NCBI GenBank assembly: GCA_032622095.1
Contig: CP136064.1
Coordinates: forward strand, 8,115,512-8,179,511
Length of the DNA: 64,000 nt
Direction: 5' to 3'
Origin: Siphonodentalium dalli
Taxonomy: Eukaryota > Mollusca > Scaphopoda > Gadilida > Siphonodentaliidae
The notes below the pieces were generated by a model that was not told the DNA's origin, did no database searches, and saw only the letters and a program-made list of their open reading frames with translations. A program made the position numbers and the translations under genes. Shown here piece after piece: positions 16,720 to 59,588 of this stretch. Every line of letters starts with the position of its first letter. Position 1 is the first letter of the stretch.

Positions 16720-16809
16720 TTAAACCACAATAAATAAATATACATGTAAAATCTCCCTCCACTTGTTCTAGAGATAAGTGACTTTTCCATTTTGCATATG
16801 TTCAAACGT

Positions 16810-17821: not shown

Positions 17822-18330
17822 TCATTGACTATTGTTGGGGGGGGGGGGGGTTATGCAGTGACTATTCTTAGGGGGGTATTCCATGACTATTGTTTGGGGG
17901 TTTATGCAGTGAATATTGTTGGGGGGTTTATGCAGTGACTATTGTTGGGATGTTTATGCAGTGACTATTGTTGGGGGTTATGCAGTGACTATTGTTGGGA
18001 GGTTTATGCAGTGACTATTCTTAGGGGGGTATTCCATGACTATTGTTTGGGGGTTTATGCAGTGAATATTGTTGGGGGGTTTATGCAGTGACTATTGTTG
18101 GGATGTTTATGCAGTGACTATTGTTGGGGGTTATGCAGTGACTATTGTTGGGAGGTTTATGCAGTGACTATTGTTGGGGGGTTATTCAGTGACTATTGTT
18201 TGGGGGTTTATGCAGTGCCTATTGTTGGTGGGTTTATGCAGTGAATATTGTTGGGAGGTTTATGCAGTGACTATTGTTGGCGGTTTATGCAGTGACTATT
18301 GTTGTGAGGTTTATACAGTGACTATTGTTT
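17822..18330. repeat. 26-bp minisatellite, about 21 units with 6-unit higher-order repeat
   Basis: Same unit as the 3.6-kb array. A block of six distinguishable units (ctta-type, ccatg-type, gaata-type, ggatg, ggggg, gggagg) is present twice, starting near 17,852 and 18,006, period about 154 bp. The array ends flush against the duplicated segment beginning tttgtttgactt at 18,330. Confidence 0.92.
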
Positions 18331-18655
18331 GTTTGACTTGTTATCTAAATATTTCCCTAAAAACAATAGGGCTTCTTCTGCACTTTCATTTATCTATCTA
18401 CTGTCTGCTTTTATCACCTAAATCCCCCCAATGAATAATCGACCATTCTGATGTATACTGACTGGGATAATTTATTTAATATAGAAATGGTTAACAGACC
18501 AGTTTGAATTATCAGATTGCACCCAGTTGATTTCAGGAACATAACAGCAGTATATTCTGTTTAGATATTATAATTACATACATAGGTAACGCGATGTGTT
18601 ATCTAGTGAAATATGCCGAAAACCTGACAATTATGCTTTTCGTGTTCAAATTTTA
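18330..18655. repeat. Dispersed duplication, copy 2
   Basis: Partner of 11,105-11,590, with an internal deletion and a 55-bp insertion relative to it. Confidence 0.85.
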
Positions 18656-18775
18656 AAAAGTCATGTTGCACAGTTGGGAGTCCAATATGACATTCGGGAG
18701 TCCAATATGACTTTTTCCCGGATTATCACGTGGCGGCTTTTGTCCAATCTTAAATAGTGTTAGTTATACAAATGT

Positions 18776-18873
18776 AAGTGTGTCTTTGTTCGCGTACGAT
18801 GGGTTAATGATACGTGTTTGTTACAAGTGTGTCTTTGTTCGCGTACGATGGGTTAATGATACGTGTTTGTTAC
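18776..18873 (+). repeat. 49-bp satellite, left part (2 units)
   Basis: Unit aagtgtgtctttgttcgcgt then acgatgggttaatgatacgt then gtttgttac. It is separated from the remainder of the array at 19,783 by an inserted block. Confidence 0.93.
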
Positions 18874-19782
18874 ATATAGAATACACCCATAGTAGCCGAG
18901 AATAACAAATTTTCACCACGAGTGGTATTGTGGTTTTAACCACGAGCCTTTGGCGAGTGGTTAAAACCACAATTCCACGAGTGGTGAAAATTTTGTATTC
19001 TCGGCTACTATGGTTGTATTTTGTTTATACCATAATTATTATTCTTCGGTCGCTTCGTAAATGTATTGCTACTATGTTGGTGGCTGTTAACATGTATGTG
19101 CACCGAGTGACCCAAATATGTTAAGCTATCAATGAATGTGGGTCACGCGTAGTAATACATATTTCTAGGAAATTCGGTGATTCGCCACTTTCTTGGGCAT
19201 CAGTCAGCTGATGTGAACACACATTCAGATTTCCCACATTGCAGATACCATTAACAATCTATACGTTGTTGTCAAAATGTAGAGCCGTCGTTCGCTTCAC
19301 ACACGGAAAGGCAGACGAACACGTGCGTTTGTTTGTTTACATTTCCAACAGCTATCGCCGACCTGTATAAAACGTGTACTTTGTCGGTGCATGCACCTAT
19401 CATAAAACATCATTAAACTAACCTTATGTGTCATTTTTTGACAAGTAAACCCAGTAAATGGAATTGGATAGTATATATCTCTGTGTTTAGAACACTTATC
19501 GCATTTCAGTGTGTTTTGAGTCGGAAAAATTGTGTATTTACTTCGCGAAGCGGGCGTGACGAAAAATTGGGCTAAATTTCGACAGCGAGGTCACCAGAGG
19601 TCAAATGACGGGTCGTTCTACTATGGGTATAAACTTTTAACACATTAAGTGCCGTTGAAACATTTACACAACAGTAGAAATTTATACCAATAGTAGGAAT
19701 CGTTATACCCACAGTAGGGTGTAAAGATGAAATTTACAAAACAGGTGTTATACACACAGTAGCATAGCCAATTATGGTATAA
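18874..19782. mobile_element. 909-bp insertion splitting the 49-bp satellite
   Basis: Begins tatagaatacacccatagtag inside a satellite unit and ends ccaattatggtata, after which the array resumes in phase. It contains a long palindrome at about 18,878-19,019 (gccgagaata.., accacgagtggt.., mirrored) and scattered tatacccacagtag-type motifs in both orientations near its ends. Terminal repeats are not simple, so superfamily is unassigned. Confidence 0.6.
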
Positions 19783-20066
19783 AAGTGTGTCTTTGTTCGC
19801 GTACGATGGGTTAATGATACGTGTTTGTTACAAGTGTGTCTTTGTTCGCGTACGATGGGTTAATGATACGTGTTTGTTACAAGTGTGTCTTTGTTCGCGT
19901 ACGATGGGTTAATGATACGTGTTTGTTACAAGTGTGTCTTTGTTCGCGTACGATGGGTTAATGATACGTGTTTGTTACAAGTGTGTCTTTGTTCGCGTAC
20001 GATGGGTTAATGACACGTATTTGATACAGGTGTGTCTTCGTTTATTTACGATGGGTTATTGATCAA
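19783..20066 (+). repeat. 49-bp satellite, right part (about 5.8 units)
   Basis: Units start at 19,783, 19,832, 19,881, 19,930 and 19,979. The last full unit and the following partial are diverged (gacacgtatttgatac), as expected at an array edge. Confidence 0.95.
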
Positions 20067-21230
20067 GTCTGCACTTGCATACGAGGAAGTTCCAAACAGG
20101 ATAACAACCAGGAGTATTACAGTGTAGCCTTGCTGGATCTATTCAAGAATACACGTTATGCAAACTTGACGGTTAATTAACATTCATTACGGAGTCCGGG
20201 TAGAATCGGGGTAGAAATCGGGTAGAATCCGGGTAGAATTCGCCTAGACCATTCCCGAAAACAAGCAAAACTGCGCAGTTTGTGTTGGAGTGAACACAGA
20301 TATAAGATGTGACAATATGTCACCCGTCATATCAAAACTAGTCGTAAGTCGAAACATATATTATTTGAGTTACGTGCTGCATGTTATGGAGTGTGATAAG
20401 ATCTTTACATAGGTCGCACACTTAATGTGTTGTTGCGGTCCAAAGTTATAGGATTTTGAATGTCAGCATAAACCGATTCCAGAGATAATCAGAGATAATC
20501 GCATTTAAGGACAAACAAATTAGCTAATTCTTAATATATATACACCACTCTATGTCCAAATTACAAAAGCACATTAATAGACTTCACTTTATGCTACTTT
20601 ATGTCGACAGAGTAGAACTATATACAAATGTGTTGGCATTTGTTTTATATATTTTATGTATTTACTCAGTATTAGAAATCCCGACTTACGACTGGTTTTG
20701 ATATGGCGGGTCACATATGTGAGATATTAAATAATTTTTCCTTTGTTTAATTTACATTTACGCAATACATGTACCGTTGATTAATAGCTAGGTTCAGCAA
20801 CACGTACGTATCCTGTAACCTGCTATGTCATTGTCAACGGGAGACACATGACTTGCGTGACTATTTAATCTACACATACACCGCCAAACAGTATAGAAGT
20901 GTTATTTCCAACGTGTAACATTCCGGACTTATAACAAAGAGGATTCATCTAATCTTCTGATAACCTAATGAGAGACCATCACTAAAAAGGCGGCGGGAGA
21001 ATGGGATTTGCCTGCGTGGGAAGATCTTACTTTGAGGGCAATTAAACGTATCGGTGGTCGCAGTGTGGACGCTGTCCTCACCGCCCTCTATTAATGACAA
21101 GTTTCTGTATTATATATATTTCTGTATTACAGGTGTATCAATTATTTTAAAAATATGATATTATTGACACTGTATAGAAATTACAATTTCGATTCATCGG
21201 CTGAGCTGAACCTGTGTCACACGAACATAA
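20067..21230. other. Unassigned; short gggtagaatc repeats
   Basis: 20,191-20,247 holds four diverged copies of ggGTAGAATCcg. A block at 20,679 repeats 15,647. No gene recognised. Confidence 0.45.
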
Positions 21231-36618: not shown

Positions 36619-36886
36619 ATGGTATAGCCTGGGGCCTATACTATGGACCATAATAATTGTAATCACAAGGTTATGGGAGGTACACAGGAGGCGTCAAGTG
36701 CAATAATCAAGTCACATGTGGAAAACCTATTATTTTATTGGTCACCATGCATGTGAACGCGGCATTACAAGAAGTCGCCTTTTCACTGTTAGAATAAGAG
36801 TGGATGTCTATGGTAATCGACACCTTTTGTGTGCCCCACAGAAGCTTGTGATTACAATAATTGTGTTCTATAGTATAGGGCCCAGG
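36619..36886. mobile_element. Inverted-repeat MITE with possible 7-bp target duplication
   Basis: Arms cctggggcctatactatgg.. with aattgtaatcacaag (36,628) and the mirror cttgtgattacaatt..ctatagtatagggcccagg (to 36,886). TCGTGAT occurs at 36,612-36,618 and 36,887-36,893 and could be the target duplication, leaving nine unpaired bases at the left end. Confidence 0.7.
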
Positions 36887-36914
36887 TCGTGATGCTGTTC
36901 TAGAACGTTGATTT

Positions 36915-37284
36915 TATCTCGGATACCTCTAAATGCACATGTGGATACGAAGTCGAAGATGCCTTTCATTATTTCTTTGAGTGCCCCCTGTATGCTACCG
37001 AAAGATGCGAACTCTTCAATAATATTGCAGCCCACCAATTTATAATATCTAACATTTCCTCCTTACTCACAGGGATATCATCAGAATCGAATCGACGCAA
37101 TGAAATTCTTTTCCATTTTGTTTATTCATACATTTCATCAACGAAACGCTTTAATTAGGCCCCCTCCGCTAACAAATATAGGCGAGATCCTCCTTTGCGT
37201 TACAAATGTTGACTACCTCAGATGAAATTTCAAAAGCAGGATAGGACTGACAGCAATCACAACCACACCATACATCATCCTGTA
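36915..37284 (+). pseudogene. LINE 3' end, part 1 (5'-truncated, split by 13.6-kb insert)
   Basis: Encodes the C-terminal zinc-knuckle region of a non-LTR retrotransposon: FISDTSKCTCGYEVEDAF then HYFFECPLYATERCELFN, ending YSYISSTKRFN and a stop at about 37,156-37,158, then 3' UTR. Compare YCLCGQLEDNDHYVMNC in the LINE at 14.6 kb. The left boundary is set by an 11-bp target duplication AACGTTGATTT (36,904-36,914) that recurs at 51,032-51,042 after the A-rich 3' end. The rest of the 3' UTR lies at 50,903-51,031. Confidence 0.85.
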
Positions 37285-37505
37285 TACCCATATAAAAATG
37301 TACCTGGGTAAATCCACCCAGGTTTTTTGGGCCGAAACCCAGGTAAAAATCTATCTACCAAGACATCCACCAACCATTAAGACCCCGCGAAACCTGGGTT
37401 TTACCATGATTTACCCACCTGAAGCTGGATAAAAACCCTGGTATGGGTAAACCTGAATGTAATTACCCAGGTGACCACACCCAGGTGTACCTTAAGGAAA
37501 CATTA

Positions 37506-39000
37506 AGGAAACTGATTGTGCAGCAATACAAGTTTATTCAAGGACAACAAACTAACTAAAGATAAAATACATGTATAGAAACACATGTAATATATAAATA
37601 TATAAACTCATTAAACTGCATGGGTTAAAACTTACTGACAACAAGAGTTGGGTTAAAATTTTGATTAAAAAACACTTGCAAAGTCCCTCTGCATACATGT
37701 ATATGGTATGTTAGGCAAGTTACATGTACATGTAGTTGCAATGTATACTAGTACCGGTACATGACATACCGGTGGACACAAAAATCATTATTTTAGTTCC
37801 AATGTCATTTACCAGAATACATGTACATGTTGTACCTTGCAACTACATCTACAGTGAGGTAGTTTTGTCTCATTTAAACTTTCTAAATGGGTTTCTCCCT
37901 TTGAATGACATAAACTAATGTGAGTATACACATGAGCTGTGGTGTGAAATACACACCAAAAAAATATTTCTTAGTCTGAGGACATGTTTCCTGTCATTAT
38001 CTTACTGCTTACAAATATAGATTTGTAATAATGTGCTGTAATGCTCCAGAAATAGTCATATTTTGTCCTGGTTCATAAGAACATATTATTTCTTAGTGTT
38101 AGAAGGACATGTTGTCTGATATTATTTGACTCATAAACCCCCAAATGTACATGTAAACAGAACATTCGGGAAAGAGACACACCATCTTTATCCTGTTTTA
38201 TATCAGTACTAAGTAGCAATATTGATCAGATAGCAAAATATGCTATAAATAGATTTCAGATGGTAGAGATTAAACAATCACATTAATTGCACCAACTCGA
38301 AACAGTTAACATACCCTGTAGAATACAGACTATGATCAAGGAGGGTGTCACACACACCCCACCCCGCTTTGGTATGTGATATTCAAGCCATTTTCAGGTG
38401 GTATGCTATATACATGTACATACCCAATGTTATCTGGTACTAGGATTTCACACGGCAATATAACCGGCATTCACGATTCAGCAAAAAGGCTAGTATGCAG
38501 ATATAATAGCAGAAAATTATACAAATTTTGAGTATTTTCCAGCTTAAACAGACCCAAGTGATATATTTTTATCTAATTCAGTCTAATGGCTCTTGATATG
38601 TTGATGTTTTGGATACTATTTCAGCAAATGTGAGAAAAAGTGGCTTCTTTGGGGCATCAGCTTGTCTGAAAAATATATCAAGGTCCCCTAAATCCGATAC
38701 TACATTTCAGAACAATCCAACCAGTGTCCCATGAAATGGTGGATAATAAACTATCATACCAAATTTGATTCAGATTTGATCACACAAACTAAAATTATGA
38801 TGCGGAAACCAGAAATTAACACGATTCTAAGTCGAAACAGGGCCATAACTCTCGCAAAAATGAGCGGAGCACACCTATATTCGAACTTGACCTGTATTTT
38901 GGTCTGATAAACTTACATACCACATTTGGTTCAGATATGATCACACAAACTGAAGTTATCATCCGGAAACCTACAATTTTCAAAGTTTAAATGTCTATTA
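37506..39000. other. Inside the block: tacatgta-rich DNA and a direct repeat
   Basis: No gene. atttgattcagatttgatca..acaaact (38,763) is repeated as atttggttcagatatgatca..acaaact (38,924), 161 bp apart, with gggccataactct between. tacatgta and accggtac words are frequent here and to 47 kb. Confidence 0.5.
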
Positions 39001-39390
39001 GGCGACACCAATTTTTAAGTCTGGTTTACGAACATGTGGGCTGATGTGGGGAGAAAAAAAGTAGATGCAGGAGGGGAAAAAAATAAAAATAAAAAAAATT
39101 GTCCCCCCCAATTTATATCAAGTAAATCTTGAAATTTTACATAAATTTTACAAAAATTGTGAAAAAAAACTTTTCGAATGAAATTCTGAACCAAACAAGA
39201 CATTTCTTGTCATGAAATACATGAAAATATGGATCTGCAAATGATCATAAGCAGAACCGGATGCGACAGCACATGAAAATCAGTACGCGTGTAAAATTAT
39301 TTGGGACAAAAAAGTAAAAAAAAAAATTCATGAAATGGAAAAAAAGTTGTAGGAGGTGTTCGTAAACCGGACTTAAAAATTGGTGTCGCC
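39001..39390 (+). mobile_element. Harbinger-like MITE, copy 1
   Basis: 390 bp with inverted termini ggcgacaccaatttttaagt then ctggtttacgaaca. It is flanked by TTA on both sides (38,998-39,000 and 39,391-39,393). A 3-bp TWA target duplication is characteristic of PIF/Harbinger elements. No ORF of significance. Confidence 0.82.
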
Positions 39391-39424
39391 TTATGTGTAT
39401 ATAACTCATATAGCTAACTATTAA

Positions 39425-40342
39425 AGGTGCTCAATCAGATTCGATGGTCCCCATATAATTAGATTCCAACAACAAATTTTTTTTTAGAAATGATGCTTCA
39501 GTAATATCAGAATCGATTAATTGCCCAAAAATAATGCTAACCACTGTCAACTACATGTATAGTATAAAATCGCCTGATACGTTATATTTATCAACATGCT
39601 GTTCGACGAAGTTTGACCTTATTATCAACACAAAGCCTCTTCATTTTAGAGTTATCCATCTTCATCCGTCGGCTCGTCAAATTTTTCTGGGCCACTATTA
39701 AGTATCGATGGTGATAAATATTAAAATTTCAAAAATTGATATCTAATAACTCTGAGCTTTGATACATGTAGGTGGGTCCCTCGACTTGATTAAAATATTG
39801 TTACCCCCCCCCCCCCGATTCCATATACATGTATATGTAAATAGCAAATGAGGGGCACTTAATCGGATTATGCATCTTTAAACTGTATTTGAATTTAAAG
39901 ATGCATAATCTGATTAAGGGCCCCCTGAATTAATGCTCGCACATTACTCTTTATTTGGACTTGGGGGGTAAAAGATATTTGGTACGAGTCGAGGAACCCA
40001 CCACCTATCAAAGCTCAGAGTTATTAGATATCAATTTTTGAAATATACTATTTTTCACGATCAAGAATTAATAGTGGCCCACGGTCTCGGACCAAATTTC
40101 AGATGAAGATGGATAACTCTAAAATCAAGAGGCTTTCTGTTGATAATAAGGCCAAATTTTGTAGAACAACATGTTGATAAATAACATATGTCAGGCAATT
40201 GTATACTTTAGTTGACAGTGGTTAGCATTATTTTAGGGCAATTAATCAATTCTGATAACGTAACTGAAGCAGCCTTTCTAAATACAAATGTATGATGTTG
40301 GAATCTGATTATATGGGTATCATCGAACCGGATTGAGTACCT
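39425..40342. mobile_element. 918-bp TTAA-flanked fold-back element
   Basis: TTAA at 39,421-39,424 and 40,343-40,346 flank aggtgctcaatcagattcga and its mirror tcgaaccggattgagtacct. The arms pair over several hundred bases, including the gataactctaaa-type block at 39,645-39,680 and 40,115-40,135. The centre holds a smaller palindrome, aagatgcataatctgattaa with mirror at 39,855. A diverged half-copy is at 16,810-17,010. Confidence 0.82.
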
Positions 40343-40954
40343 TTAAAATGAACTGTATCCAGTATAAACATGTTAAACCTGATAATTAATTAGAGCATGC
40401 AGTCCCTGTTGACATGCGGTATCCGCTGGTAATCTTACCACAGTAATATGTGTTAACTGTGATAACCAAGTTAATTGTTTTTACCACAAAAATTCTGAAT
40501 TCTATCTAGACATTTTGAAACAATAAAAAAAAAATTCTGGTGTGATTACAATGTCAACTTTAAAACAAAATTCATATAAACATCGCATGAAAAATACAGC
40601 CTAACTGCAAATGTGAGGTGGACCACATTCTGCGGCGGTATAACTGACTGCGGTTGATCGCATGAACACGCCTGAATACTGCAGTAATACCCGAGTAATA
40701 TAAGGCGAGTTGATTAATTAAAGCATAGCTGTAATTTTACATGTATGTTCTATAGACTTTGTTGGGAAAGAGAATATAGCTGTGCGACAATGTTAATCCT
40801 GATGAGCTAAGTTAGAAATTTTTCAATCGAAACCTCATAAAAAAAAATATAAATTCAGTTCTCAATTTTCGAACACTTCTAGGAAATTGTTCAAAAATAT
40901 TGTTAAAAGATGCCCATTCGATTTGACACTGTAAATATACCCTGTTCAAGTGTT

Positions 40955-41062
40955 CCTGCTAATGTGCTATGATGCGGTTGGGTCCTGCTTAATTGCTATG
41001 AATTGCACTACCCGCATCATAGCAATTCAGCAGGACCACCAGCATCATAGCATATTAGCAGG
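40955..41062. repeat. Nested double palindrome
   Basis: Outer arms cctgctaatgtgctatgatg / catcatagcatattagcagg; inner arms ggtcctgcttaattgctatg / catagcaattcagcaggacc. Confidence 0.82.
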
Positions 41063-41488
41063 ACCACTTGGCCAGTGGTAAAATAGTTTGTTTTCCATAC
41101 GGATATGTGTTTTCAAATAATCATGTAATGATATCTAACATACATGTATATGATCCCATTTATAGGTTTTATTCATCACGGCCAGATAAACTTTGTATAC
41201 AGACAGTTTTACCAAACTTAGAATTTGTATTAGGTGCTTTCATTGTAGCTGTAATTACTAGTATTAAAAGAGTGCTCAATAAAGTTTGTTTTATCATTTA
41301 TGCTCATTTGGAATTTGGATGCTATTTAATTCTGTTTATCTATATAATTGGCTGCACTGCTAAATTTTGACTCATTTCAGTCATTTGATGTCAGTACATG
41401 TAGTTGTCCATCGAAATGGCGAACACAACCAAAGACAAATTACAAGAGGAAAGACAACAAATACATTTGATGTGCACTAAAACAGATA

Positions 41489-41653
41489 CAGTAGTGCCCT
41501 AATAAATCGACCCCTTAACCACAGCAGAATTATGTGTAACTTTCAGGATTTAGTCGGATATATGGCTTGTTGCCATTCATCGGAAAGCTCTCCCCGAGTT
41601 TAATACCCGTAATTCTGCTGTGGTTAAGGAGTCGATTAATTAGAGCATTACTG
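41489..41653. mobile_element. pogo-like MITE, copy 1 (deleted centre)
   Basis: 165 bp between TA dinucleotides at 41,487 and 41,654, with ends CAGTAGTGCCCTAATAAATC and, inverted, CAGTAATGCTCTAATTAATC. CAGTA-type ends with TA duplication fit the Tigger/pogo group. Arms pair through ccacagcagaatta. The right half of the inner palindrome seen in copy 2 is missing. Confidence 0.82.
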
Positions 41654-43158
41654 TAGTTACAAATGTATGTCTAGCCTCCTGTTGTGTCACTAATAAGATC
41701 TTTAATTCACATACGGTACACATGTACATGTACATGTACATGTACTATATACCCGTTCAAGCGTTTACAAGTGTCAGTCGTCGAGAAACTGACCAAAAGT
41801 TTTGGTAGTATATAATATAGGCTAGCACTGCACTTGGGCTACATGTACATGTACTGTAAGTGATTATAATGTACTATTTTTATATTCTGCTGTGAAAGTG
41901 TTGCTGAATGAAATTTAAGTTTACCCCGATATTCTAAGTCCGCTCGACTAAGATGGGTTTTTTCTCGAAAACTGATATCTGAATATACATGACTTTTTGT
42001 ACGTCTTCCACTGGTTGGTATTCCCTCTAAAATGACTAATTTTAACTGATTAGATTAGCCCTGGTATGGAAAACTCTAACTGTTATAGCCCGATGAGCAG
42101 TTTACTGCCAACAGCGGTGATGATATGATGACCAGCGTTGTGCATGGCATATGTTGATCCAGGTAAGAATGCTACCATACATTCCAAACATTCATTAAAT
42201 ATCTTATTAATAGTAACCCAAACTACACAAGAGACTAGTATAACTAAGATTGGGCTCGATTAATGATGTGACACTTTCAGTACTTCATTTACTAGTAGCC
42301 TGGTACTGGTGGGCCTGGCTACAGATACTTGTTTGGCGTGTTTGAGGCCTGTGGCACAAGGGCAGCAGAATCAATTAAAATTTCTCTTATTGTAGTGTAG
42401 TACATGTACATGAATAGTACCGGTAGTACAGCACACAAAGAGGTATATAGTACCGGCACATGTACATGTATTCTCTCTGTTTTCACACATGTTTTTTTTC
42501 AATTTAACAACATGAGTCTTTTATGACACATACATGTACTAAAGTGAAAGTAGGCCTACATGTATATAATGTGCACCCAGTATACCGGTACATGTACTGA
42601 TATATTACATTGCAATACAGTCCGAGTACAATGATATAGCAATATTATGCATAGTAGAATAACAACCTTTTGTACAAACAGTCCTGACAATGATATACCG
42701 GGATATCATGGTGATAGTTCATACATTTGGAATTACCGAATACCTGAGTTTGTGGATAGACCGCTTCATGCGATGTTTATGTGAATTTTTATTTTTAAGT
42801 CGGCATTGCATACGGTAGTCCTATAAACCACACCAGAGAATAGCAATTGTCGGTCAGTGACCAACTTCTTATGTTTATGCAATCGATACAATCCGGTTCT
42901 GCTTTTGATGTCCAGTTCGATATTTGTGGTGTGTTCTTGTGCAAAAATATAATTCTAACTAATGCGCCAAAAATCAGGTTTATAAATTTATCCTTTCTTG
43001 AGCAAGAGCAACTCGTAAAACTTGTATGGTATAACATTCCAAACTGAGTATTTCTGCTATCAAACCATATGATAATAATGTTGAACCGGACATCGAAATC
43101 TGAACCGCATTTATGGATTGCAGCACGTGATGTTGAATAAATAGTTATAGAGGATATA
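41654..43158. other. Inside the block: microsatellite and dispersed repeat, no gene
   Basis: 41,718-41,745 is a (acatgt)n run. 41,885-41,995 (gctgaatgaaatttaagttt, ctcgactaagatgg, aaaactgatatctgaat) matches 55,900-55,995 and, more weakly, 56,695-56,775. Confidence 0.5.
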
Positions 43159-43375
43159 CAGTAATGCTCTAATTAATCGACTCCTTAACTACAGCAGAAT
43201 TATGGGTAACTTTTCAGGATTTAGTCGGAAATATGGGTTGATGCCATTCATCGGAAAGCTCTCGGTGAGAGCTTTCCGATGAATGCCAACAAGCCATATT
43301 TCGGACTAAATCCTGAAAAGTTACCCATAATTCTGCTGTAGTTAAGGAGTCGATTAATTAGCTCTAGAATTACTG
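43159..43375. mobile_element. pogo-like MITE, copy 2 (full palindrome)
   Basis: 217 bp between TA at 43,157 and 43,376. Near-perfect fold-back from cagtaatgctctaattaatc to its mirror, except an inserted gctcta near the right end (attagctctagaattactg). Confidence 0.87.
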
Positions 43376-44488
43376 TAACATGGTTTATAATATACAAATG
43401 TATACTGTATGGGAAACATCAGAGGTTTACAAAGTAATAAAAACAGTTGATTTGTTCTTTATTCTTGTGGTTATATACACGTACATACATGTATTCTAAA
43501 AATAAATGTCCTTTACAACGTGGATCAATGAAATGCGGTTGTTGCATTTAAAATGCATTGAGGGTGCATTGTATCACGCCACTTTGTAAATGCCTTAATG
43601 ACAGCATTTAAATTAAATGCACTGCATTGGGAATAATCGCAGTCGCATTGAAATTACCGATCATTGCGCCGAAAAAGTATACTAGTATGAACACCCAAAT
43701 AACGATACGATAGTGTATTTTGCAATTTTAGTTATAATTTTGTTTAATTTAAATTCACATCTGAATAATTCTGTGTTATTTTCCCACTCCTGGTGTACAT
43801 GTATATGTTCGGAATCGGACATTCATGATGTAGTTTTCCATTCAAAATGGAATAAACATAAATAAACACTGTTGACATTAATTGTTTTATAATCAGAATC
43901 TGATAATCATGACTCTCATTTTGATTCTAGTAAAAAGTCTTGATTCCCTGTAGAAAGTGAAACACTAACATTTTGATTATTGCCAAAAATCTGATGGATT
44001 TTAAGGCCTGCATCAAGACATTTGTTTGTGAATAAATCAAGGTAAATGTGTTAAAATATGAACGCATTTACAAATGCGTTGCTCCAAAATCGCAAAGTAG
44101 ATTCGAACATGTGGTCGCTTTTCTAAGAAATTTGTGAGTGGTCTGTACATGTACATACATGTAAGTTACTTGACCAATTACACAAGGAGAAGGAGTCGAG
44201 GGACACAATCAATGAGGACGTTAGTACTAAAAAATATTTTTTTACGCAAGGAACGAACACAAGGCCACTTTCTTAATTTATATTAAGAGCCAACAAGACA
44301 GATCGTAAATCGCTGTTATATGACAATATATGTGGCCATCATAATGGTCGACAGGCATGACGCCAACAAAAACCAATCTGTCAGGCCAATATAAAGAAGT
44401 CGCGACTTATTGCTGGTGGAACCTATTAAAGGCATCGTTCCATTTCGTTAATAACAACTTACATGTAACATTCACCTCCACCTCTTTA

Positions 44489-45438
44489 CTCTTGGGCTCC
44501 AAATAAATATGCATACACCAGCTGCATCCACGTTTATTATTTTTCTTGGGAAATCCCCCCCTCCCCGCACAGTGCTTATTTGGGTCTGCACGTTTATTAA
44601 TATTTTGAAGCTATGAAAATTTAAATCAGCACAAATTCAAGATTTCTATATGATTCAGATGTAAAAATGATCAACACGTCTACATTAGTTACTATAGCTA
44701 AACAAGACATTTTGTCATATGTTTATACTTTACTGTGAAATTGCGTTTCTTCCGTTCTCCATGAACGGATTCTCAAAATGTTTGGTTTTCCAAAAAACAA
44801 GGATTCGAACTGTCTGAACTGAACTCCATCCGTTCGTTTAAATAGATGAATAAATAGTGGGAAAGACATACAATCCTAATTCATAATGAATTTAAGTATA
44901 TAAATATAAATAATAAACGGCGGATTCAACGTGGTCATGGGTTTTGACCGCTTTAAAAAATCAGCAAACTCCGCATGAACCCCTTCGGGGTTCATGCAGT
45001 TTGCTGATTTTTTTCTCGCGGTCAAAATCCCATGACCACATTGAAACCGCCGTTCATTTCTTATATGAATAACACAATTTAAGATTGGTGAATTATTTCT
45101 TTTGGTTAATTTAATAAACGTACAGGACCAAATAACGATCGTACAGGTGGGAATTTTACCTCGATTTTAATAATCGTACATTAGGCACTCAAGAGTACAT
45201 ATTCAAGTATGTGGCAAACCAAAAAAACACCACATGATACATACATGTACCTGTACTACATGTTGACTCGTATACCTGAACCTGCTATAAAAATTATTTG
45301 GTTAACCACAGTTGATGTTTTGCTCAGAGTTCCCCCTGCACTATTATTTGGGTCTGTACTTTTATTAACTTTCAATGGAATTTCCCCCCCCCCCCCGCAC
45401 TATTATTTGGGCCTGCACTTTTATTTGGAGCCTGAGAG
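44489..45438. mobile_element. 950-bp TA-flanked inverted-repeat element
   Basis: Ends ctcttgggctccaaataaa and inverted ctctcaggctccaaataaa, bracketed by TA at 44,487 and 45,439. Subterminal atttgggtctgcac/gtttatt motifs recur at 44,578, 45,347 and 45,403. It contains the hairpin at 44,918-45,052. Confidence 0.65.
44918..45052. repeat. 135-bp hairpin
   Basis: cggcggattcaacgtggtca.. pairs with ..tgaccacattgaaaccgccg. The central loop tip is gaaccccttcggggttc. Arms are about 60 bp with few mismatches. Confidence 0.88.
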
Positions 45439-45480
45439 TAAGTTGCATTGACATTTATTTTCACGAATTACCATGCTAAA

Positions 45481-46174
45481 GGCCAAAGAAAAAAGATTGT
45501 ATGTTTCCGGTAAATTTTTTTAGGGTAGGTAGGTAGGGAAATTTTTTTATTTTGATATTTTTTATCCAGCTGCAGAAATATTGAACTACCTCGACCAAAG
45601 TGACATAAAATGCCAACCCGTGCCATGGGGAAAGTATTACTTGATCAACACAGTGGAAATATACATTAAGATTGATAAAAAATCAAACTTACTTCATGCT
45701 TACGTATGTTTTTTATTATATATAATACCACATTTTCATAAATTTGGCTATAAACTTGGTACAAAATTGATGTCACTAACTTTTTATAAGAATTTTACCA
45801 ATAATACCGCCATTATACCGTACATGTATTGTGACGATTACATCCCATTGTCTGGGGGTAGCCAGTACACCCACCGAGCATGCCTGGTTTTTGGAAACAG
45901 TAGCTACTAGTACATGTATAGTGACTGTATACCCCTAATATATGCAGTGATAACCTCTTTACATGTATATATACAGATACACACCCACCATGTCTGTTGA
46001 TAGTGTTCCATAAGTCCCAAACAAGACATAAAGCAGGCAGGAGATCCACTCTCAGGAAATTAAAATTGCGAAAATTTTGACTTTTTCTCAAAATATCAAT
46101 ACAAAGTTTAGGGTCGGCGGGTTATTTTTAGGGTCGGTCGATGTACGGAAACATAGTATCTTTTTTCTTTGGCC
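45481..46174. mobile_element. 694-bp terminal-inverted-repeat element with gggtaggtaggg
   Basis: ggccaaagaaaaaagattgt then atgtttccg is mirrored by cggaaacatagtatc then ttttttctttggcc. Subterminal gggtaggtaggtagggaaat (45,524) and gggtcggcgggttattttta (46,111) resemble each other and 10,088-10,140. The internal 109-codon ORF (45,581-45,910) has no recognised domain. Confidence 0.72.
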
Positions 46175-46360
46175 TAAGGAACATTGCAACTGGTTTGAAG
46201 TAACATGACCGCGTTGCGTCAACACTGGAACTGCATTGATGGTAATTTTCAACATGGTCTCACTGAGGTTCTATCAAATATAAATACTAGTATGGTTGAG
46301 GCCAACTTGAGGGAGACAATTATTTTGAGAATATGTGATCCTGTGTTAACATGAGCCTAA

Positions 46361-46739
46361 GGCGACACCAATTTTTAAGTCTGGTTTACGAACACCTCCT
46401 ACAACTTTGTTTCCATTTCATGAAAAAAAAACCAACTTTTTTTGTCCCAAAATATTTTACACGCGTACTGATTTTCATGTGCTGTCGCATCCGGTTCTGC
46501 TTATGATCATTTACAGATCCATATTTTCATGTATTTCATGACAAGATATGTCTTGTTTGGTTTGAACAGAATTTCATTCAAAAACATTTTTTCACAATTT
46601 TTGTAAAATTTATGTAAAATTCCACGATTTACTTGATATAAATTGGGGGGGACAATCTTTTTTATTTTTATTTTTTTCCCTCCTGCATCTACTTTTTTTC
46701 TCCCCACATCGTAAACCAGACTTAAAAATTGGTGTCGCT
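46361..46739 (-). mobile_element. Harbinger-like MITE, copy 2
   Basis: Same family as 39,001-39,390 but inserted in the opposite orientation (tcctgcatctac on this strand against gtagatgcagga there). Flanked by TAA on both sides (46,358-46,360 and 46,740-46,742), again a TWA duplication. Confidence 0.82.
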
Positions 46740-47055
46740 TAAATATCATCTGATGGTGTCAAAATCATTGAACCGTCACTTACATGTATGCATGCACATG
46801 TTGTCTTGATGTTGAGTCTGGCTTTCATCATTTTCATTAGTTTTACTGTTAATATCCACCAAAGGTTGAGGTGTTATGGAACAACTGTATGGCATCGTAT
46901 ACTGTTATCTTCCGAGTAAATATGGAGTCTCTAATTCTTTTATCAGTCACGCATCTACTCATCAAATAGTATAATCCTTAAATATTTGTAGTCCAGGTGA
47001 TCTCGACTGCACAGTACATGTATAAACATTCATCTGTGCACAGTGTGTTTTAAAT

Positions 47056-47262
47056 TTCTTTGCCGTGTAACAACTGTTGTCCCAAGTTTCAATGCCTTGT
47101 CCTCCTGGTATGTAGGGATTACCAATTTACCATTGCCGTGTTTTAATTTGCAATTTTGATGATGACGCTCACTAAGCTTGTTGATCATTTTCTTTGTCGT
47201 GTAACAACTGTTGTACCAAGTTTCTACGCCGCGTCCTCCTGGTATTTAGGGATTACCGGTGC
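47056..47262. repeat. Direct repeat, two diverged copies about 133 bp apart
   Basis: gtgtaacaactgttgtccca..gtcctcctggtatgtaggga and gtgtaacaactgttgtacca..gtcctcctggtatttaggga. Confidence 0.8.
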
Positions 47263-47439
47263 CTTTAATAGCGTCAGATGCATCATTGCCAGTTAATGTA
47301 CATTAGAGTGGAACTGAATTAACAATGTCACATTGACACAGTACTCAGTTAAGACCAGTAAAACAGCAAAAGTAGTATTATTGTACAGCAGGCTTATCAC
47401 TATCAGTACTTACTACATGTACTGACTGACCCCTTACTA

Positions 47440-48040
47440 TCGTGGATCAATCTGAATCTGAATGGTTACGCTGCAGATCCCAATTATGGTAATTTCGCAG
47501 CGGGCGAGAGAGTCTCAGATCTTTTCCTTCAGCGCACTCTTGAAGGAATCCACAGGCTGTTGTTGTAGGATTAAGGATTCCTCCAGCTGATTCCAGTCGC
47601 ATATAGTTCGAACAAATGTGGAATTAGCGAACTGAGCTGACACGTATGGTATAGCCTCGTAGCACTGACTGTTGTTCCTTTAAATTAGGTGCCGAGGAAT
47701 TTGGCTGGTGACGTAGCCTGTCAGAACTTTGCTCTGCGATCTAAGACGCCTTGTTTCGGGTGTAAAGTATTGATTAGGTGGTATAGCCGGGACCAATCCA
47801 CCCACCACCTTACTCATGAATCCCAGCCGATTTATTTTCCGCCGTTTCTGCAATGTTGGTAAATCTAGCTCGTAGAGGATCTTGGTCATATATCCATCTT
47901 CTTTGCTCTTATAGTCTCTTTTAATCAAACGGGCTGCTCTACGCTGGATTCTTTCCAGCTTGTCGGTGTGATTTTGTTGGTAGGGGTCCCAGATGGTGTC
48001 TGCGTAGTCCATGATCTTCAAACTTCTCAATTCTTCTTCT
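47440..48040 (-). pseudogene. LINE C-terminal fragment
   Basis: Minus-strand 3' end of a second type of non-LTR retrotransposon. Open segment 48,030-47,680 reads IMDYADTIWDPYQQNHTDKL, ERIQRRAARLIKRDYKSKED, LYELDLPTLQKRRKINRLGF. After a break it continues with ANSTFVRTICDWNQLEESLI and VDSFKSALKEKI, a stop near 47,515. The leading YADTIWDPY is the usual post-RT LEYASxVWDP block. The element end carries attcagattcagattgatcc near 47,450 (minus strand), a short tandem 3' terminus as in CR1/L2-like elements. There is no zinc knuckle, so it differs from the LINEs at 12.6 and 36.9 kb. Confidence 0.88.
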
Positions 48041-48740
48041 TCTGGACATGTGCATTATGAGCAGGCCACTGGCACTACATCATGATTGTACCGGTACCAC
48101 AAATTCAATTTTGAGAAAATATTCTGGTTATGGCCAGGTAGCTGAGGTACTGTTCAATACTATAGTTGATCCGTTTCGTAATATCGTAGCTTAATTCTTA
48201 CTGTTCCGGGAATTGAAATATTTTTTGTCACATGAAATTCAGTCTTTTTCGATATTTGCGCACATCCAAGGGAGAAATCGGCGAATCTTATATATAAGTC
48301 CACAGTTTATCCGTTTGTAGCCAATACACCATTTCCTTCTGTCAATCCGCGTTGATTCGCGACAAAATTAACTCAAAATACCACAAGGAATTATCCGCGC
48401 TTCATTTTGAAGAACGATAACTAAAAGTTAAGATTGTAATTTGGCTGCAGAAACGAAACGAAACGAATTTTGAAACACAATAATTGTATTCACTAATATT
48501 GGTATATGGTCTACTATAGTATATGCAATCATTTATTTGAAATAATAAGTATCACTTAGAGAATAATTCTTACTGATAATTAGAAATCTCTTTATTTTGT
48601 ATCCCTTTAATATTAAATAATGGCCCTGAAAATTGTCTGTTTGTCAGTTTAATGTTCACTAATTATAGCTAGGCTGTTAGATAAAGTATGATATTGCTTC
48701 ATTTGTCCGGGGTGGTGTATTGTCATACTGTCATAATAAA

Positions 48741-50575
48741 CTTCAAGTAATAAGGTAACTACTCGTCAATGATGCTTGAATACATAAATGATTAATAAGG
48801 TAACAACTACCTGTCAATGATCGACGTCTTAATATAGAAAGGTTTTATAAGGTAACTAACTACACGGCAATGATACTTATTATAGAAGGTTAATAATTTA
48901 ACTTCTTGTCAATGATGCTTTAATATAGAAAGGGTTAATAAGGTAACTACCCGTCAATAATGCTTTAGTGTAGAAATGGTTACTAAGGTAACTACATGTC
49001 AATGATGCTTTAATAAAGAAAGGGTTAATAAGATAAAGTTCTACACGTCAATGATGCTTAAATATAGAAAGGGCTAATAGGGTAACTACACGTCAATGAT
49101 GTTTAATATAGAAAGGGTTAATATGGTAATTACACGCCAATGGTGCTTTAATATAGAAAGGGTTAATATGGTAACTACCGTCCATGATGCTTTAATATAT
49201 AACTGGCTACTATGATAACTACATGTCAAAGATGCTTTATTGTAGAAAGGGTTAATAATGTAACTAATCACCAATGATACTCATTATAAAAAGGGTTTAT
49301 AAGGTAACTGCCTGTCAATTATTGCTTCAACGTAGAAAGGGTTAATAAGGTAATTACACGCCAATGGTGCTTTAATATAGAAAGGGTTAATATGGTAACT
49401 ATCAGTCAATGATGCTTTAATATAGAAAGTGTTATAATATGGGAACTGCACGTCAATGATGCTTTGATACAAAAATGGTTAATAAGGTAATTACCCGTCA
49501 ATGGCACTTTAATATAGAAATGGTTTATAATGTAACTACTCACCAATGATACTTAGTATAGAAAGGGTTGTTTAATGTAACTACCTGTCAATTAATGCTT
49601 TAATATAGAAAAGGTTAATAAGGTAACTACACGCCAATGATACTTAGTATAGAAAGGGTTGGTAAGGTAACTACACGACAATGATACTTTAGTATATAGA
49701 GGGTTAATTAGGCAACTACCCGTCAACGATGCTTTAATATAGAAAGGGTGAACATGGTAACTACACGTCAATGATATTTTAATTAAGAAAGGGCTAATAA
49801 GGTAACTACATGTCAATGCTGCTTTAATACAGAAATGGTTAATAAGGTAACTTCACGTCAATGATGCTTTAATATAGAAAGGGTTAATACTGTAACTACT
49901 CACCAATGATACTTAGTATAGAACGGGTTAATAAGATAACTACCCAGCAATAATGATGCTTTAATATAGAGAGGGTTATAATAAGGTAACTACACGTCAA
50001 TGATGCTTTAATACATAAATGGTTAATAAGGTAACTACCCGCCAATGGCGCTTTAATATAGAAAGGGTTAATAATGCAACTACTCACCAATGATACTTAG
50101 TATAGAAAGGGTTAATAAGGTAACTACCTGTCAATTAATGCTTTAATATAGAAAGGGTTAATAAGGTAACTACACGCCAACGGTACTTAGTATAGGAAGG
50201 GTTAATAAGGTAACTATATACGACAATGATACTTTGGTATATACAGAGTTAAGGAGCCAACTACCCGTCAATGATGCTATACTATATAAAGGGTTAACAT
50301 TGTAACTACACATCAATGATATTTTAATATAGAAAGGGTTAATAAGGTAACTACGCGTCAATGATGCTTTAATAAAGAAAGGGTTAATAAGGTAACTTCA
50401 CATCAATGGTGCTTTAATATAGAAAGGGTTAATAATGTAACTACTCACCAATGTTACTTAGTATAGAAAGGGTTAATAAGGTAACTACCTGTCAATTAAT
50501 GATTTAATATAGAATGGTTAATATGGTAACTACACGCCAATGGTGCTGTAATATAGAAAGGGTTAATAAGGTGAC
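48741..50575. repeat. 45-bp minisatellite, about 40 diverged units
   Basis: Consensus approximately ggttaataaggtaactacac then gtcaatgatgctttaatata then gaaag. Single units vary by substitution and small indels. Since 45 is divisible by 3 and minus-strand units read LINPFYIKASLTCSY, the array creates many short minus-strand ORFs that are artefacts. It ends against the ACCTGGGT-rich right arm of the 13.6-kb block. Confidence 0.93.
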
Positions 50576-50902
50576 TTCAATGCAGATTATACAGTTTAAC
50601 AAAATACCACAGGTGTATATATCCGGGTGAACACTGTAGTAAATACCTGGGCGAAACCCTGGTGTAAATACCTGGGTGTAAATACCTGGTGTAAATACCT
50701 GGGTGTAAATCCGTAAAAACCCGGGTAAACTGGGGTTTATACCTAACATATATAGAAAACACCTGGGTAAATCTATATAAATCCCTGATTTACCTGGGTG
50801 TAACCTGGGTGTGACCTGGGTGGAACCAGGGTAAAACCTATATGTACCGGGGTATACCTAGGTAAACACCAAGATTTACCCAGGTACATTTTTATATGGG
50901 TA

Positions 50903-51031
50903 TATGTTATGTTCGTCATCTACTTTGTATTTGTTAAAATGTATATGGGAGAGAGGCGATTTGAGTTGTTAAAACTTGTGTCCCGATCCCTTGTGTAATA
51001 TTATATTACAATAAAATATGTTTAAACAAAA
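50903..51031 (+). mobile_element. LINE 3' UTR, part 2
   Basis: Continuation of the LINE at 36,915-37,284 after the 13.6-kb insert. Contains AATAAA at 51,010-51,015 and ends in an A-rich tail (tttaaacaaaaa), followed by the duplicated target AACGTTGATTT. Confidence 0.78.
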
Positions 51032-54000
51032 AACGTTGATTTCGAGTCTAATATAATGCATTGGCCGCTAGTTCCTTCTTCTTACATATAACATAAGAGC
51101 AGACGACAGACAGAAACACATATAACATAAGAGCAGGCGACAAACAGAAACACATATAACATAAGCATTGTTGATGCTGTTCTAGAACGTTGATTTCGAG
51201 TCTAATATAATGCATTGGCCGCTAGTTCCTTCTTCGTTGATTTCGAGTCTAATATAATGCATTGGCCGCTAGTTCCTTCTTCGTTGATTTCGAGTCTAAT
51301 ATAATACATTGGCCGCTAGTTCCTTCTTCGTTGCGATATTAATTTCGAGTCTAATATAATGCATTGGCCGCTAGTTCCTTCTTCGTTGCGATATTAATTG
51401 CGAGTCTAATATAATACATTGGCCGCTAGTTCCTTCTTCTTTGCGATATTAATTTCGAGTCTAATATAATACATTGGCCGCTAGTTCCTTCTTCGTTGCG
51501 ATATTAATTTCGAGTCTAATATAATGCATTGGCCGCTAGTTCCTTCTTCGTTGCGATATTAATTTCGAGTCTAATATAATACATTGGCCGCTAGTTCCTT
51601 CTTCGTTGCGATATTAATTTCGAGTCTAATATAATACATTGGCCGCTAGTTCCTTCTTCGTTGCGATATTAATTTCGAGTCTAATATAATGCATTGGCCG
51701 CTAGTTCCTTCTTCGTTGCGATATTAATTTCGAGTATAATATAATACATTGGCCGCTAGTTCCTTCTTCGTTGCGATATTAATTTCGAGTCTAATATAAT
51801 ACATTGGCCGCTAGTTCCTTCTTCGTTGCGATATTAATTTCGAGTCTAATATAATGCATTGGCCGCTAGTTCCTTCTTCGTTGCGATATTAATTTCGAGT
51901 CTAATATAATACATTGGCCGCTAGTTCCTTCTTCGTTGCGATATTAATTTCGAGTCTAATATAATACATTGGCCGCTAGTTCCTTCTTCGTTACGATATT
52001 AATTTCGAGTCTAATATAATGCATTGGCCGCTAGTTCCTTCTTCGTTGCGATATTAATTTCGAGTATAATATAATACATTGGCCGCTAGTTCCTTCTTCG
52101 TTGCGATATTAATTTCGAGTCTAATATAATACATTGGCCGCTAGTTCCTTCTTCGTTGCGATATTAATTTCGAGTCTAATATAATGCATTGGCCGCTAGT
52201 TCCTTCTTCGTTGCGATATTGATTTCGAGTCTAATATAATGCATTGGCCGCTAGTTCCTTCTTCGTTGATTTCGTGTCTAATATAATGCATTGGCCGCTA
52301 GTTCCTTCTTCGTTGCGATATTGATTTCGAGTCTAATATAATGCACTGGCCGCTAGTTCCTTCTTCGTTGCGATATTGATTTCGAGTCTAATATAATGCA
52401 TTGGCCGCTAGTTCCTTCTTCGTTGCGATGTTGATTTCGAGTCTAATATAATGCATTGGCCGCTAGTTCCTTCTTCGTTGCGATATTTATTTCGAGTCTA
52501 ATATAATGCATTGGCCGCTAGTTCCTTCTTCTGTGCGATATTGATTTCGAGTCTAATATAATACATTGGTCGCTAGTTCCTTCTTCGTTGATTTCGAGTC
52601 TAATATAATGCATTGGCCGCTAGTTCCTTCTTCGTTGATTTCGAGTGTAATATAATGCATTGGCCGCTAGTTCCTTCTTCGTTGCGATATTAATTTCGAG
52701 TCTAATATAATACATTGGCCGCTAGTTCCTTCTTCGTTGCGATATTAATTTCGAGTCTAATATAATGCATTGGCCGCTAGTTCCTTCTTCGTTGCGATAT
52801 TAATTTCGAGTCTAATATAATGCATTGGCCGCTAGTTCCTTCTTCGTTGCGATATTAATTTCGAGTCTAATATAATACATTGGCCGCTATTTCCTTCTTC
52901 GTTGCGATATTAATTTCGAGTCTAATATAATGCATTGGCCGCTAGTTCCTTCTTCGTTGCGATATTGATTTCGAGTCTAATATAATGCATTGGCCGCTAG
53001 TTCCTTCTCGTTGATTTCGAGTCTAATATAATGCATTGGCCGCTAGTTCCTTATTCGTTGCGATATTGATTTCGAGTCTAATATAATGCATTGGCCGCTA
53101 GTTCCTTCTTCGTTGCGATATTGATTTCGAGTCTAATATAATGCATTGGCCGCTAGTTCCTTCTTCGTTGCGATATTGGTTACGAGTCTAATATACTGCA
53201 TTGGCCGCTAGTTCCTTCTTCGTTGCGATATTGATTTCGAGTCTAATATAATGCATTGGCCGCTAGTTCCTTCTTCTGTGCGATATTGATTTCGAGTCTA
53301 ATATAATACATTGGTCGCTAGTTCCTTTTTCGTTGATTTCGAATCTAATATAATGCATTGGCCGCTAGTTCCTTCTTCGTTGATTTCGAGTGTAATATAA
53401 TGCATTGGCCGCTAGTTCCTTCTTCGTTGCGATATTGATTTCGAGTCTAATATAATGCATTGGCCGCTAGTTCCTTCTTCGTTGCGATATTGATTTCGAG
53501 TGTAATATAATGCATTGGCCGCTAGTTCCTTCTTCGTTGCGATATTGATTTCGATTGTAATATAATGCATTGGCCGCTAGTTCCTTCTTCGTTGCGATAT
53601 TGATTTCGAGTCTAATATAATGCATTGGCCGCTAGTTCCTTCTTCGTTGCGATATTGATTTCGAGTCTAATATAATGCATTGGCCGCTAGTTCCTTCTTC
53701 GTTGCGATATTGATTTCGAGTCTAATATAATGCATTGGCCGCTAGTTCATTCTTCGTTGATTTCGAGTCTAATATAATGCATTGGCCGCTAGTTCCTTCT
53801 TCGTTGCGATATTGATTTCGAGTCTAATATAATGCATTGGCCGCTAGTTCCTTCTTCGTTGATTTTGAGTCTAATATAATGCATTGGCCGCTAGTTCCTT
53901 CTTCGTTGATTTCGAGTCTAATATAATACATTGGCCGCTAGTTCCTTCTTCGTTGATTTCGAGTCTAATATAATGCATTGGCCGCTAGTTCCTTCTGCGT

Positions 54001-54345
54001 TGATTTCGAGTCTAATATAATGCATTGGCCGCTAGTTCCTTCTTCGTTGATTTCGAGTCTAATATAATGCATTGGCCGCTAGTTCCTTCTTCGTTGATTT
54101 CGAGTCTAATATAATGCATTGGCCGCTAGTTCCTTCTTCGTTGATTTCGAGTCTAATATAATGCATTGGCCGCTAGTTCCTTCTTCGTTGATTTCGAGTC
54201 TAATATAATGCATTGGCCGCTAGTTCCGTCTTCGTTGATATCGAGTCTAATATAATGCATTGGCCGCTAGTTCCTTCTTCGTTGATTTCGAGTCTAATAT
54301 AATACATTGGCCGCTAGTTCCTTCTTCGTTGCGATATTGATTTCA
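51032..54345 (+). repeat. 55/47-bp satellite array, about 60 units
   Basis: Long unit: cgttgcgatattaatttcga, gtctaatataatgcattggc, cgctagttccttctt (55 bp). The short unit lacks gcgatatt (47 bp). One isolated unit (51,032-51,083) is followed by about 90 bp containing two near-copies of cacatataacataagagcag, then the continuous array from about 51,186. Between about 51,360 and 52,190 the gcattgg/acattgg variant alternates g-a-a, giving a three-unit (165 bp) higher-order repeat. A gagtata variant recurs every 330 bp (51,731 and 52,061). The right half is richer in 47-bp units. Confidence 0.97.
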
Positions 54346-59118: not shown

Positions 59119-59588
59119 GCTAAAGAGCGTTTCACCCCTCTTTAGCACTGAGGGATACAGAACGGTATACCGCTCTTTAGCGACGAGGGCTAAAGAGTGG
59201 TATACCGCTCTTTATAGCCGGACACTAAAGATCGTACAGTACGGGTGACAATGAAAGACCGTTCTTTATCGCGCCAGGACCATGTGTAGCTAAATTGCGG
59301 TATAGACCGCCTGTGTACACAACTCTTGAGTGTTAGACAGGTACACCGTTCTTAGGCGTTTGTCACGAAATAGCAGTATACCGTTCTTTAGCGTATCAGG
59401 CCCATATAGCTAATGAGTGGTATACCACTCTTTAGCATTTGGTACTAAAGAGCGGTATACCGCTCTTTAGCCCCAAATGCTAAAGAGTGGGATATCGTTC
59501 TTTAGCGTGTCAGGCCCATATATAGCTAAAGAGCGGTATACCGCTATTTAGTGTTTGGTACTAAAGAGCGGTATACCGCTCTTTAGCC
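59119..59588. repeat. Palindromic AAAGAGCG array, about 12 sites
   Basis: Repeated whole or half copies of ctaaagagcggtataccgct ctttag, itself a perfect palindrome, spaced irregularly (about 25-60 bp), with variants (gagtgg, cgttcttta). The same ctcttta/taaagag words occur in pairs in the dispersed repeat at 1.5, 29.45 and 31.0 kb. Confidence 0.87.

Follow-up and report, generated by a model that had tools for sequence, protein, structure and literature searches.

A long gene-less transposon family of probable TRC/CACTA type, and a copy nested in a LINE beside a satellite array, in Siphonodentalium dalli

The locus and the order of the insertions

The window analysed here is a 64,000-nucleotide stretch of the genome of the scaphopod Siphonodentalium dalli (G000:C4:8115512-8179511; genome 2.23 Gb, nine contigs). 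It holds the leader of a satellite array, a long interspersed element (LINE) and, inside the 3' untranslated region (UTR) of the LINE, a 13,614-bp block bounded by terminal inverted repeats (TIRs), to the right of which the LINE and then the satellite continue (Table 1). The LINE, a 5'-truncated copy, was inserted first, into a dispersed repeat at the head of the satellite array and with an 11-bp target duplication; the TIR transposon then entered its 3' UTR and duplicated 2 bp. The nesting gives the order, first the repeat with the satellite leader, then the LINE, then the block. Nested insertions of LINEs and DNA transposons, with the order read from their target duplications, are textbook matter, and the nesting at this locus is in itself ordinary; the difference from such cases is that the LINE target here seems also to have seeded a satellite. 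What is unusual is the size and abundance of the gene-less transposon.

The target duplication of the LINE, AACGTTGATTT, occurs three times in the window, at 36,904-36,914, 51,032-51,042 and 51,186-51,196 (shuffled sequences have a mean of 0.12, and none of 100 shuffles reaches three), and GATGCTGTTCTAG is found at 36,891-36,903 and 51,173-51,185. An earlier note on this DNA had placed these sites at the same coordinates, and both flanking sequences read as it described. Its LINE limits and 11-bp duplication also hold, with one refinement: because the ATTT of the left copy (36,911-36,914) is common to the LINE and the target at the 5' junction, the left limit of the LINE lies within 36,911-36,915. 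The C-terminal codons run from 36,916 to the TAG at 37,156-37,158, and the same C-terminus closes a 580-aa frame of another copy, L005, whose upstream part matches RVT_1 (E 2.2e-34). The 3' UTR halts at 37,286 and restarts at about 50,903, followed by AATAAA and an A-rich tail ahead of AACGTTGATTTCGAG. The element thus has the features of a LINE, namely RVT_1 (in L005), an A-rich 3' end, a 5' truncation as compared to L005 and L010, which extend further upstream, and the 11-bp duplication. Its relatives in the PDB are R2-type proteins (E 3e-9 to 7e-5).

A genome search with the left LINE part alone returned 601 candidates, 40 of which were scored, and those listed are 99-100% identical. Twelve LINE loci were cut out, the window and 11 others, and all 11 others read CCTGTATATATGTTATG unbroken across the insertion point of the block. 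This is the outcome of a test set beforehand in the earlier note, that the 3' UTR should be continuous elsewhere, and the loci had been fetched by the left half alone. The junction CCTGTATATATGTTATG has 286 genome matches at up to 2 mismatches (reversed-pattern control 0), all of them uninterrupted LINE copies, the only kind that a pattern spanning the insertion point can find. The same note had named an assembly break between the LINE halves as a finding that would refute it, and the window has no N at all. The insertion history it proposed, from target to LINE to 13.6-kb block, is consequently borne out by the three AACGTTGATTT sites, the 11 unbroken copies and the absence of N.

The target can also be followed outside the window. 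A 26-nt target pattern, with up to 3 mismatches, has 46 genome matches, of which five are single places and the others belong to the window array and to a second one at C4:239.83 Mb; this pattern spans the LINE insertion point and finds unbroken copies, and its informative part is the sequence upstream. There, L068, L069, L070 and L072 read GATGCTGTTYTAG as the window does, L073 has a close variant and L071 only CTGTTCTAG. Since the upstream leader is common to other loci, leader, AACGTTGATTT and CGAG stand in their original order. The sequence at 51,173-51,196, which had been called an empty site, is indeed uninterrupted, but the leader and first unit are present twice in the window, 154 bp apart, and the 51,173 copy is therefore a local duplicate. 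It is paralogous and not an allelic empty site, and cleaner uninterrupted copies lie at other loci. The further claim that the LINE landed in the sequence that became the satellite unit finds support in the second array (L068), which has this leader too, and in the single copies in the dispersed repeat.

Table 1. Features of the locus, in window coordinates.
Feature	Position	Strand	Basis or remark
Miniature inverted-repeat transposable element (MITE)-like short element in the leader; arms 36,628-36,705 / 36,809-36,886	36626..36886 (approx.)	.	78-nt inverted repeat, 78% complementary
Target: satellite leader, part of the dispersed repeat, ending in LINE duplication copy 1, AACGTTGATTT (36,904-36,914)	36887..36914	+	
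5'-truncated LINE, left part: C-terminal codons, TAG, 3' UTR	36911..37286	+	Ungapped match to L005 1497-1872, 2 mismatches in 376
Target duplication of the block (TA), left copy; placement within TATATA ambiguous	37285..37286	.	Unbroken LINE copies read CCTGTATATATGTTATG
Block, probable non-autonomous TRC/CACTA-type transposon, 13,614 bp; 28-bp TIRs 37,287-37,314 / 50,873-50,900	37287..50900	.	
Left subterminal region, 7 ACCNNGGT sites	37287..37494	.	
Internal repeat; inverted copy at 46,345-46,749	39043..39394	.	Within the aligned part of the compared family copies
124-aa open stretch, in our reading resembling a fragment of another LINE's C-terminus	47680..48054	-	No Pfam match
Internal 45-bp minisatellite	48748..50576	.	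Length differs between family copies
Right subterminal region, 12 ACCNNGGT sites and right TIR	50656..50900	.	
Target duplication of the block (TA), right copy	50901..50902	.	
LINE, right part: remaining 3' UTR, AATAAA, A-rich tail	50903..51031	+	Sequence and comparison with other LINE copies
LINE target duplication, copy 2	51032..51042	+	AACGTTGATTT match
Second, uninterrupted local copy of leader and first satellite unit	51173..51235	+	51,186-51,235 100% identical to 51,032-51,081
Satellite array, 55-bp units (and a 47-bp variant)	51287..54344	+	

The family of 14-kb elements

The block is bounded by a perfect 32-nt inverted repeat (37,283-37,314 / 50,873-50,904), of which 28 nt per arm belong to the element. 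The arms read TATACCCATATAAAAATGTACCTGGGTAAATC, and the TATA portion is flank. Arrays of the short motif ACCNNGGT lie at both ends, and its density, 0.12 per kb elsewhere in the window, is 1.39 per kb in the block. Genome-wide there are 863 perfect 28-bp ends (435+428), and the 32-nt end pattern has 341+351 matches at up to 3 mismatches; the reversed-pattern control gave 0 in both searches. Ends were paired on contig C1, for which the listing of 97 ends is complete, as facing pairs within 60 kb, and were counted on the other contigs. C1 has 37 facing pairs and 23 single ends. The median pair length is 14,460 bp (range 8,696-20,312), and 20 of the 37 pairs fall at 13.8-14.7 kb. A marker from the middle of the element has 485 genome matches at up to 2 mismatches; exact markers lie inside 29 of the 37 C1 pairs, and 14 of the 17 found outside pairs are near a single end. 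From the end and marker counts we estimate that the family has 430-485 copies, which together take up 6-7 Mb, about 0.3% of the genome.

Three copies (L023/L024, L025/L026 and L027/L028) can be aligned to the window copy over the whole block, and an 18,983-bp copy (L031/L032) aligns throughout except for a nested LINE with a 1,158-aa open reading frame (ORF), located at 52-3525 on the minus strand of L032. In the 20,312-bp copy (L029/L030) the minisatellite is longer and there is an additional insertion of about 4 kb. The longer copies were considered as a possible autonomous form, and this was rejected, their lengths being explained by these additions. The 8,696-bp copy (L033) has both end regions in common with the window copy and a different middle. 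Over 37,283-48,282 the window copy differs from the five compared copies by 0.87, 0.78, 0.87, 0.77 and 1.21% substitutions, counted only in alignments of at least 93% and at least 200 bp. No bin along the element stands out as conserved among the compared copies, and the values of the minisatellite bins are unreliable. The window copy is short of 598-728 bp of the left subterminal array (between 37,494 and 37,499) that are present in L024, L026, L027 and L032, where the left array has 51, 49, 43 and 39 ACCNNGGT sites as compared to 7 in the window. With its reduced left array the window copy may be less mobile. It was also possible to observe two 14.2-kb copies about 1.7 kb apart (G000:C1:244441342-244471504), with their ends in the same orientation and both preceded by TAAA, possibly a local duplication.

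Stop-to-stop frames in the block reach at most 125 aa; in L023, L025 and L027 they reach at most 127, 154 and 165 aa, the last inside the subterminal repeats. A Pfam search in six frames gave no family and no transposase domain in the window copy, and no family in L029 (about half of the 20.3-kb copy) or in L033 2500-8801. The six-frame control recovered RVT_1, and the Tnp2 frame of L067 (see below) was scanned only as its own ORF. Neither the 124-aa frame at 47,680-48,054 nor the 80-aa C-terminus of the LINE has a Pfam match, so that short degenerate pieces can escape detection. Rfam, searched in reverse with the window, gave nothing, and no host gene fragment was recognised in the block. An 11-residue match to Tnp2 at 44,509-44,541 (E about 1), in a stop-rich frame and with no extension, was taken as chance.

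Target duplications, relatives and the likely transposase

The flanks of 18 rows, representing 17 independent copies, were compared; five copies had been picked by a TATA-containing pattern and 12 irrespective of their flank. They match at 2 bp in all 17, including the 12 flank-independent ones, and at 3 bp in one of 17. The duplicated pair in the 12 is AT (3), AA (3), TT (2), CC, TA, TG and AG. Thus the target duplication of the block is 2 bp of any sequence. The description of the block as TA-flanked in the earlier note is correct for this locus, where TA stands on both sides, but does not extend to the family, since TA is seen in one of the 12. Polintons (Mavericks) duplicate 6 bp, and are ruled out by the 2-bp duplication as well as by the absence of Pfam domains. 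A Helitron, which has neither TIRs nor a target duplication, is ruled out by the presence of both.

The block has a CCC-initial TIR, CCCATATAAAAATGTACCTGGGTAAATC at both ends, a 2-bp target duplication and subterminal arrays of a short motif, ACCNNGGT, all of which are found in the animal TRC elements. In the part of the literature drawn on here, the TIRs of SmTRC1 from Schistosoma mansoni, and of its relatives in Aedes aegypti and Tribolium castaneum, begin with CCC, 2-bp repeats are given for 7 of 14 copies, and the elements are filed under CACTA (PMC1636069). The wider CACTA group is described in a 2025 paper, again in the part drawn on, as having 2-5 bp duplications and mostly CA..TG ends (PMC12730594), and the CCC ends therefore fit TRC rather than the wider group. 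A plant-type CACTA/EnSpm element, with a CACTA-initial TIR and a 3-bp duplication, was rejected, the ends being CCC and the duplication 2 bp. To the likeness with animal TRC elements can be added that relatives sharing the ends of the block carry the start of what appears to be a Tnp2 (Transposase_21) gene. SmTRC1 differs, as far as that account goes, in being about 4.5 kb and transposase-coding, whereas the common form of the present family is about 14 kb with no gene found; its truncated copies are described as internal-deletion derivatives, which the present family does not look like.

These relatives form a sibling family of about 3.2 kb, which has the outer 18 bp, the 2-bp duplication and the ACCNNGGT arrays in common with the 14-kb family. 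Ends reading CCCATATAAAAATGTACC and then a base other than T have 60+73 genome matches (control 0). Those followed by A are the sibling ends, and among the ends listed they make at least 17 facing pairs of 2.9-3.2 kb; those followed by C or G are probably mutated 14-kb ends. A 2-bp duplication is present in seven of seven siblings (L054-L058, L062/L063 and L064: GT, AC twice, AG, CG, TA twice). L054 has 43 ACCNNGGT sites, and its similarity to the block is confined to the ends, in matches of at most 60 bp, which does not suggest that the block arose from a sibling by deletion. In L064 a LINE with open frames of 199 and 989 aa (1301-4820, plus strand) is nested in the sibling element.

Two loci suggest a link between these ends and a transposase. 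The sibling family has a 37-aa gene start with 44 genome matches. L077 contains this start, with 93% over 30 aa and, to L065, 91% DNA identity over 621 bp, together with the acidic region, which is interrupted by stops; further along that strand come two segments whose identity to the L067 Tnp2 protein is 60% and 57%. By chance, 44 and 138 places would be expected to give such an arrangement, within 5 kb and on one strand, about 0.007 times. It was found in L077 only, and L077 has no recognisable ends. L067 has a Tnp2 ORF (PF02992, 29.9 bits, cut-off 28.6) and, about 5 kb from it, a CCCATATAAAAATGTACC end with the same 18 bp and an array of 15 ACCATGGT sites. The genome has 78 Tnp2 places by PF02992 and 138 by the L067 protein. 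Pfam gave nothing in the three forward frames each of L057 and L058 or the three minus frames of L065, in whole-frame scans with X at stops that can overlook weak single exons. A different Tnp2 family (L075, L076) has a 909-aa Tnp2 ORF and one ACCNNGGT in 7 kb; its two copies agree over the full 7 kb taken, with no end visible. Twelve PF02992 Tnp2 matches with one TAG each lie within about 5 Mb (G000:C7:18.86-23.97 Mb), a local cluster of one CACTA-like family.

It is likely, with a probability of roughly 0.8, that the block is a giant non-autonomous TRC-type CACTA/EnSpm (CMC) element with the nested history given above, and apparently not an internal-deletion derivative. The block and its family are probably mobilised in trans by a CACTA-type enzyme. 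In the mechanism we propose, a Tnp2-type transposase made elsewhere would bind the CCCATATAAAAATGTACC ends and the subterminal ACCNNGGT sites, excise the element and paste it with a 2-bp staggered cut. The interior would be ordinary non-coding DNA that contains old repeat fragments and a minisatellite and travels as one piece between the ends, and not a deleted transposase gene.

Several observations weigh against this assignment. There is no CACTA motif at the family ends, and Pfam in six frames found no Tnp2 (Transposase_21) gene in the window copy, which therefore is non-autonomous at best. Both ends and a complete Tnp2 gene were never found together in one element: the other end of L067 was found neither in its first 3.4 kb nor in the 10 kb before, and in L077/L078 a search allowing 3 substitutions gave no end, and ACCNNGGT occurs only once. 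In the 14-kb and 3.2-kb copies tested there is no convincing match to the Tnp2 protein of either L067 or L075. With 133 ends and 78 places, a proximity like that in L067 is expected by chance about 0.09 times within 10 kb to either side, so that L067 taken alone is weak. The chance figure for L077 would be higher if repeats cluster, which several matches on C3 near 49.1-49.3 Mb suggest.

These points leave room for another view, that the family is moved by a transposase outside CACTA/EnSpm and that the Tnp2 neighbours in L067 and L077 are coincidental. It agrees with the lack of a complete Tnp2 element with these ends and with a chance proximity that is not negligible for L067. We consider it unlikely, as the sibling coding start in L077 is continuous in order and strand with Tnp2 exons, and as the CCC ends, 2-bp duplications and subterminal arrays fit TRC/CACTA as these are described in the sources drawn on. 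That the block is a Tc1/mariner-type element is very improbable. The TA pairs that flank the block in the window, and those of six among the 17 independent copies, would agree with it, but five of those six were picked by the TATA pattern. Such an element requires TA in every copy, whereas the pairs listed above for the flank-independent copies and the siblings are mostly others, and TA-specificity is already refuted by them; the window copy also has no transposase domain.

Repeats of several hundred copies can mislead an assembler, so the join of LINE and block might be thought an assembly artefact. The left LINE half differs from the 11 other copies at 2-3 of 368 positions. For the right half, of about 125 bp, the figure is 3-11 substitutions, which falls inside or just beyond the 0-10 by which the other copies differ from one another. 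Because these differences are comparable to those of other copies, the halves fit one young LINE; with the 2-bp duplication as at other copies of the block, and with no N, an artefact is scarcely credible. Finally, that two short TIR elements flank 13.6 kb of host DNA by chance, a notion that the older repeat fragments and lack of a gene in the interior might invite, is refuted by the 37 facing pairs on C1 with their narrow length mode and distinct left and right ends, by the interior that the compared copies have in common and by the 485 matches of the mid-element marker.

Most non-autonomous DNA transposons are smaller than the coding elements they depend on. Furthermore, transposition efficiency is stated, in the part of a review drawn on, to fall as the ends move apart (PMC6431247), and a young family of about 14 kb with hundreds of copies and no gene found is a natural test of this end-distance rule in an animal genome. 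It is conceivable that the 14-kb non-coding element is the normal, actively spreading form, its length kept through hundreds of transpositions because the interior or the arrays serve the element (e.g. as a spacer, a multimerising platform or a silencing decoy) and the small related family supplying the enzyme now or formerly, but we hold this to be rather improbable.

Plant CACTA elements resemble the block in their TIRs and subterminal repeats. In the parts of the sources drawn on, the 16.5-kb Jozin element of Chenopodium has an internal satellite array together with coding sequence (PMC8978399), and pvCACTA1 of common bean is non-coding, abundant and small, with no autonomous partner found (PMC4938662). 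An internal array, as in Jozin, and a non-coding, abundant nature, as in pvCACTA1, are points of likeness with the block, which differs in lacking CACTA ends and 3-bp duplications and in being both long and non-coding, whereas Jozin is coding and pvCACTA1 small. Large retrotransposon derivatives and Pack-MULEs are alike in that enclosed DNA is moved by machinery supplied in trans, but they belong to other superfamilies; the long terminal repeat (LTR)-enclosed DNA of the former is rarely above 10 kb, according to the part of the review drawn on (PMC6431247). A large non-autonomous CACTA element or a giant non-coding DNA transposon in an animal was not met in the open-access literature, which is no evidence of absence from print, and the combination of length, lack of a gene and hundreds of copies was likewise not met in the open-access literature searched.

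The leader and the satellite array

This one locus shows how part of a dispersed repeat came to serve as the seed of a satellite and also as the target of a LINE. The leader at L068 is without the MITE-like element and reads GATATGGTAGCCAGGTCGTGATG continuously at that position, which adds one more insertion to the history of the locus. The second satellite array (L068), headed by this leader as well, is on the contig of the window at a distance of 231 Mb. The satellite period is 55 bp, and a second TTGATTT stands exactly 55 bp past the first in two of the five single-copy loci (L070 and L072), as compared to 48 bp in L071 and 20 bp in L073; in L069 the searched form of the second TTGATTT was not found. 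This spacing fits a satellite unit born between two short direct repeats of the dispersed repeat, which we infer to be its origin. Further to the right in the window, at 59,134-59,588, there is a short array of palindromic 35-bp repeats (CTAAAGAGCGGTATACCGCTCTTTAG).

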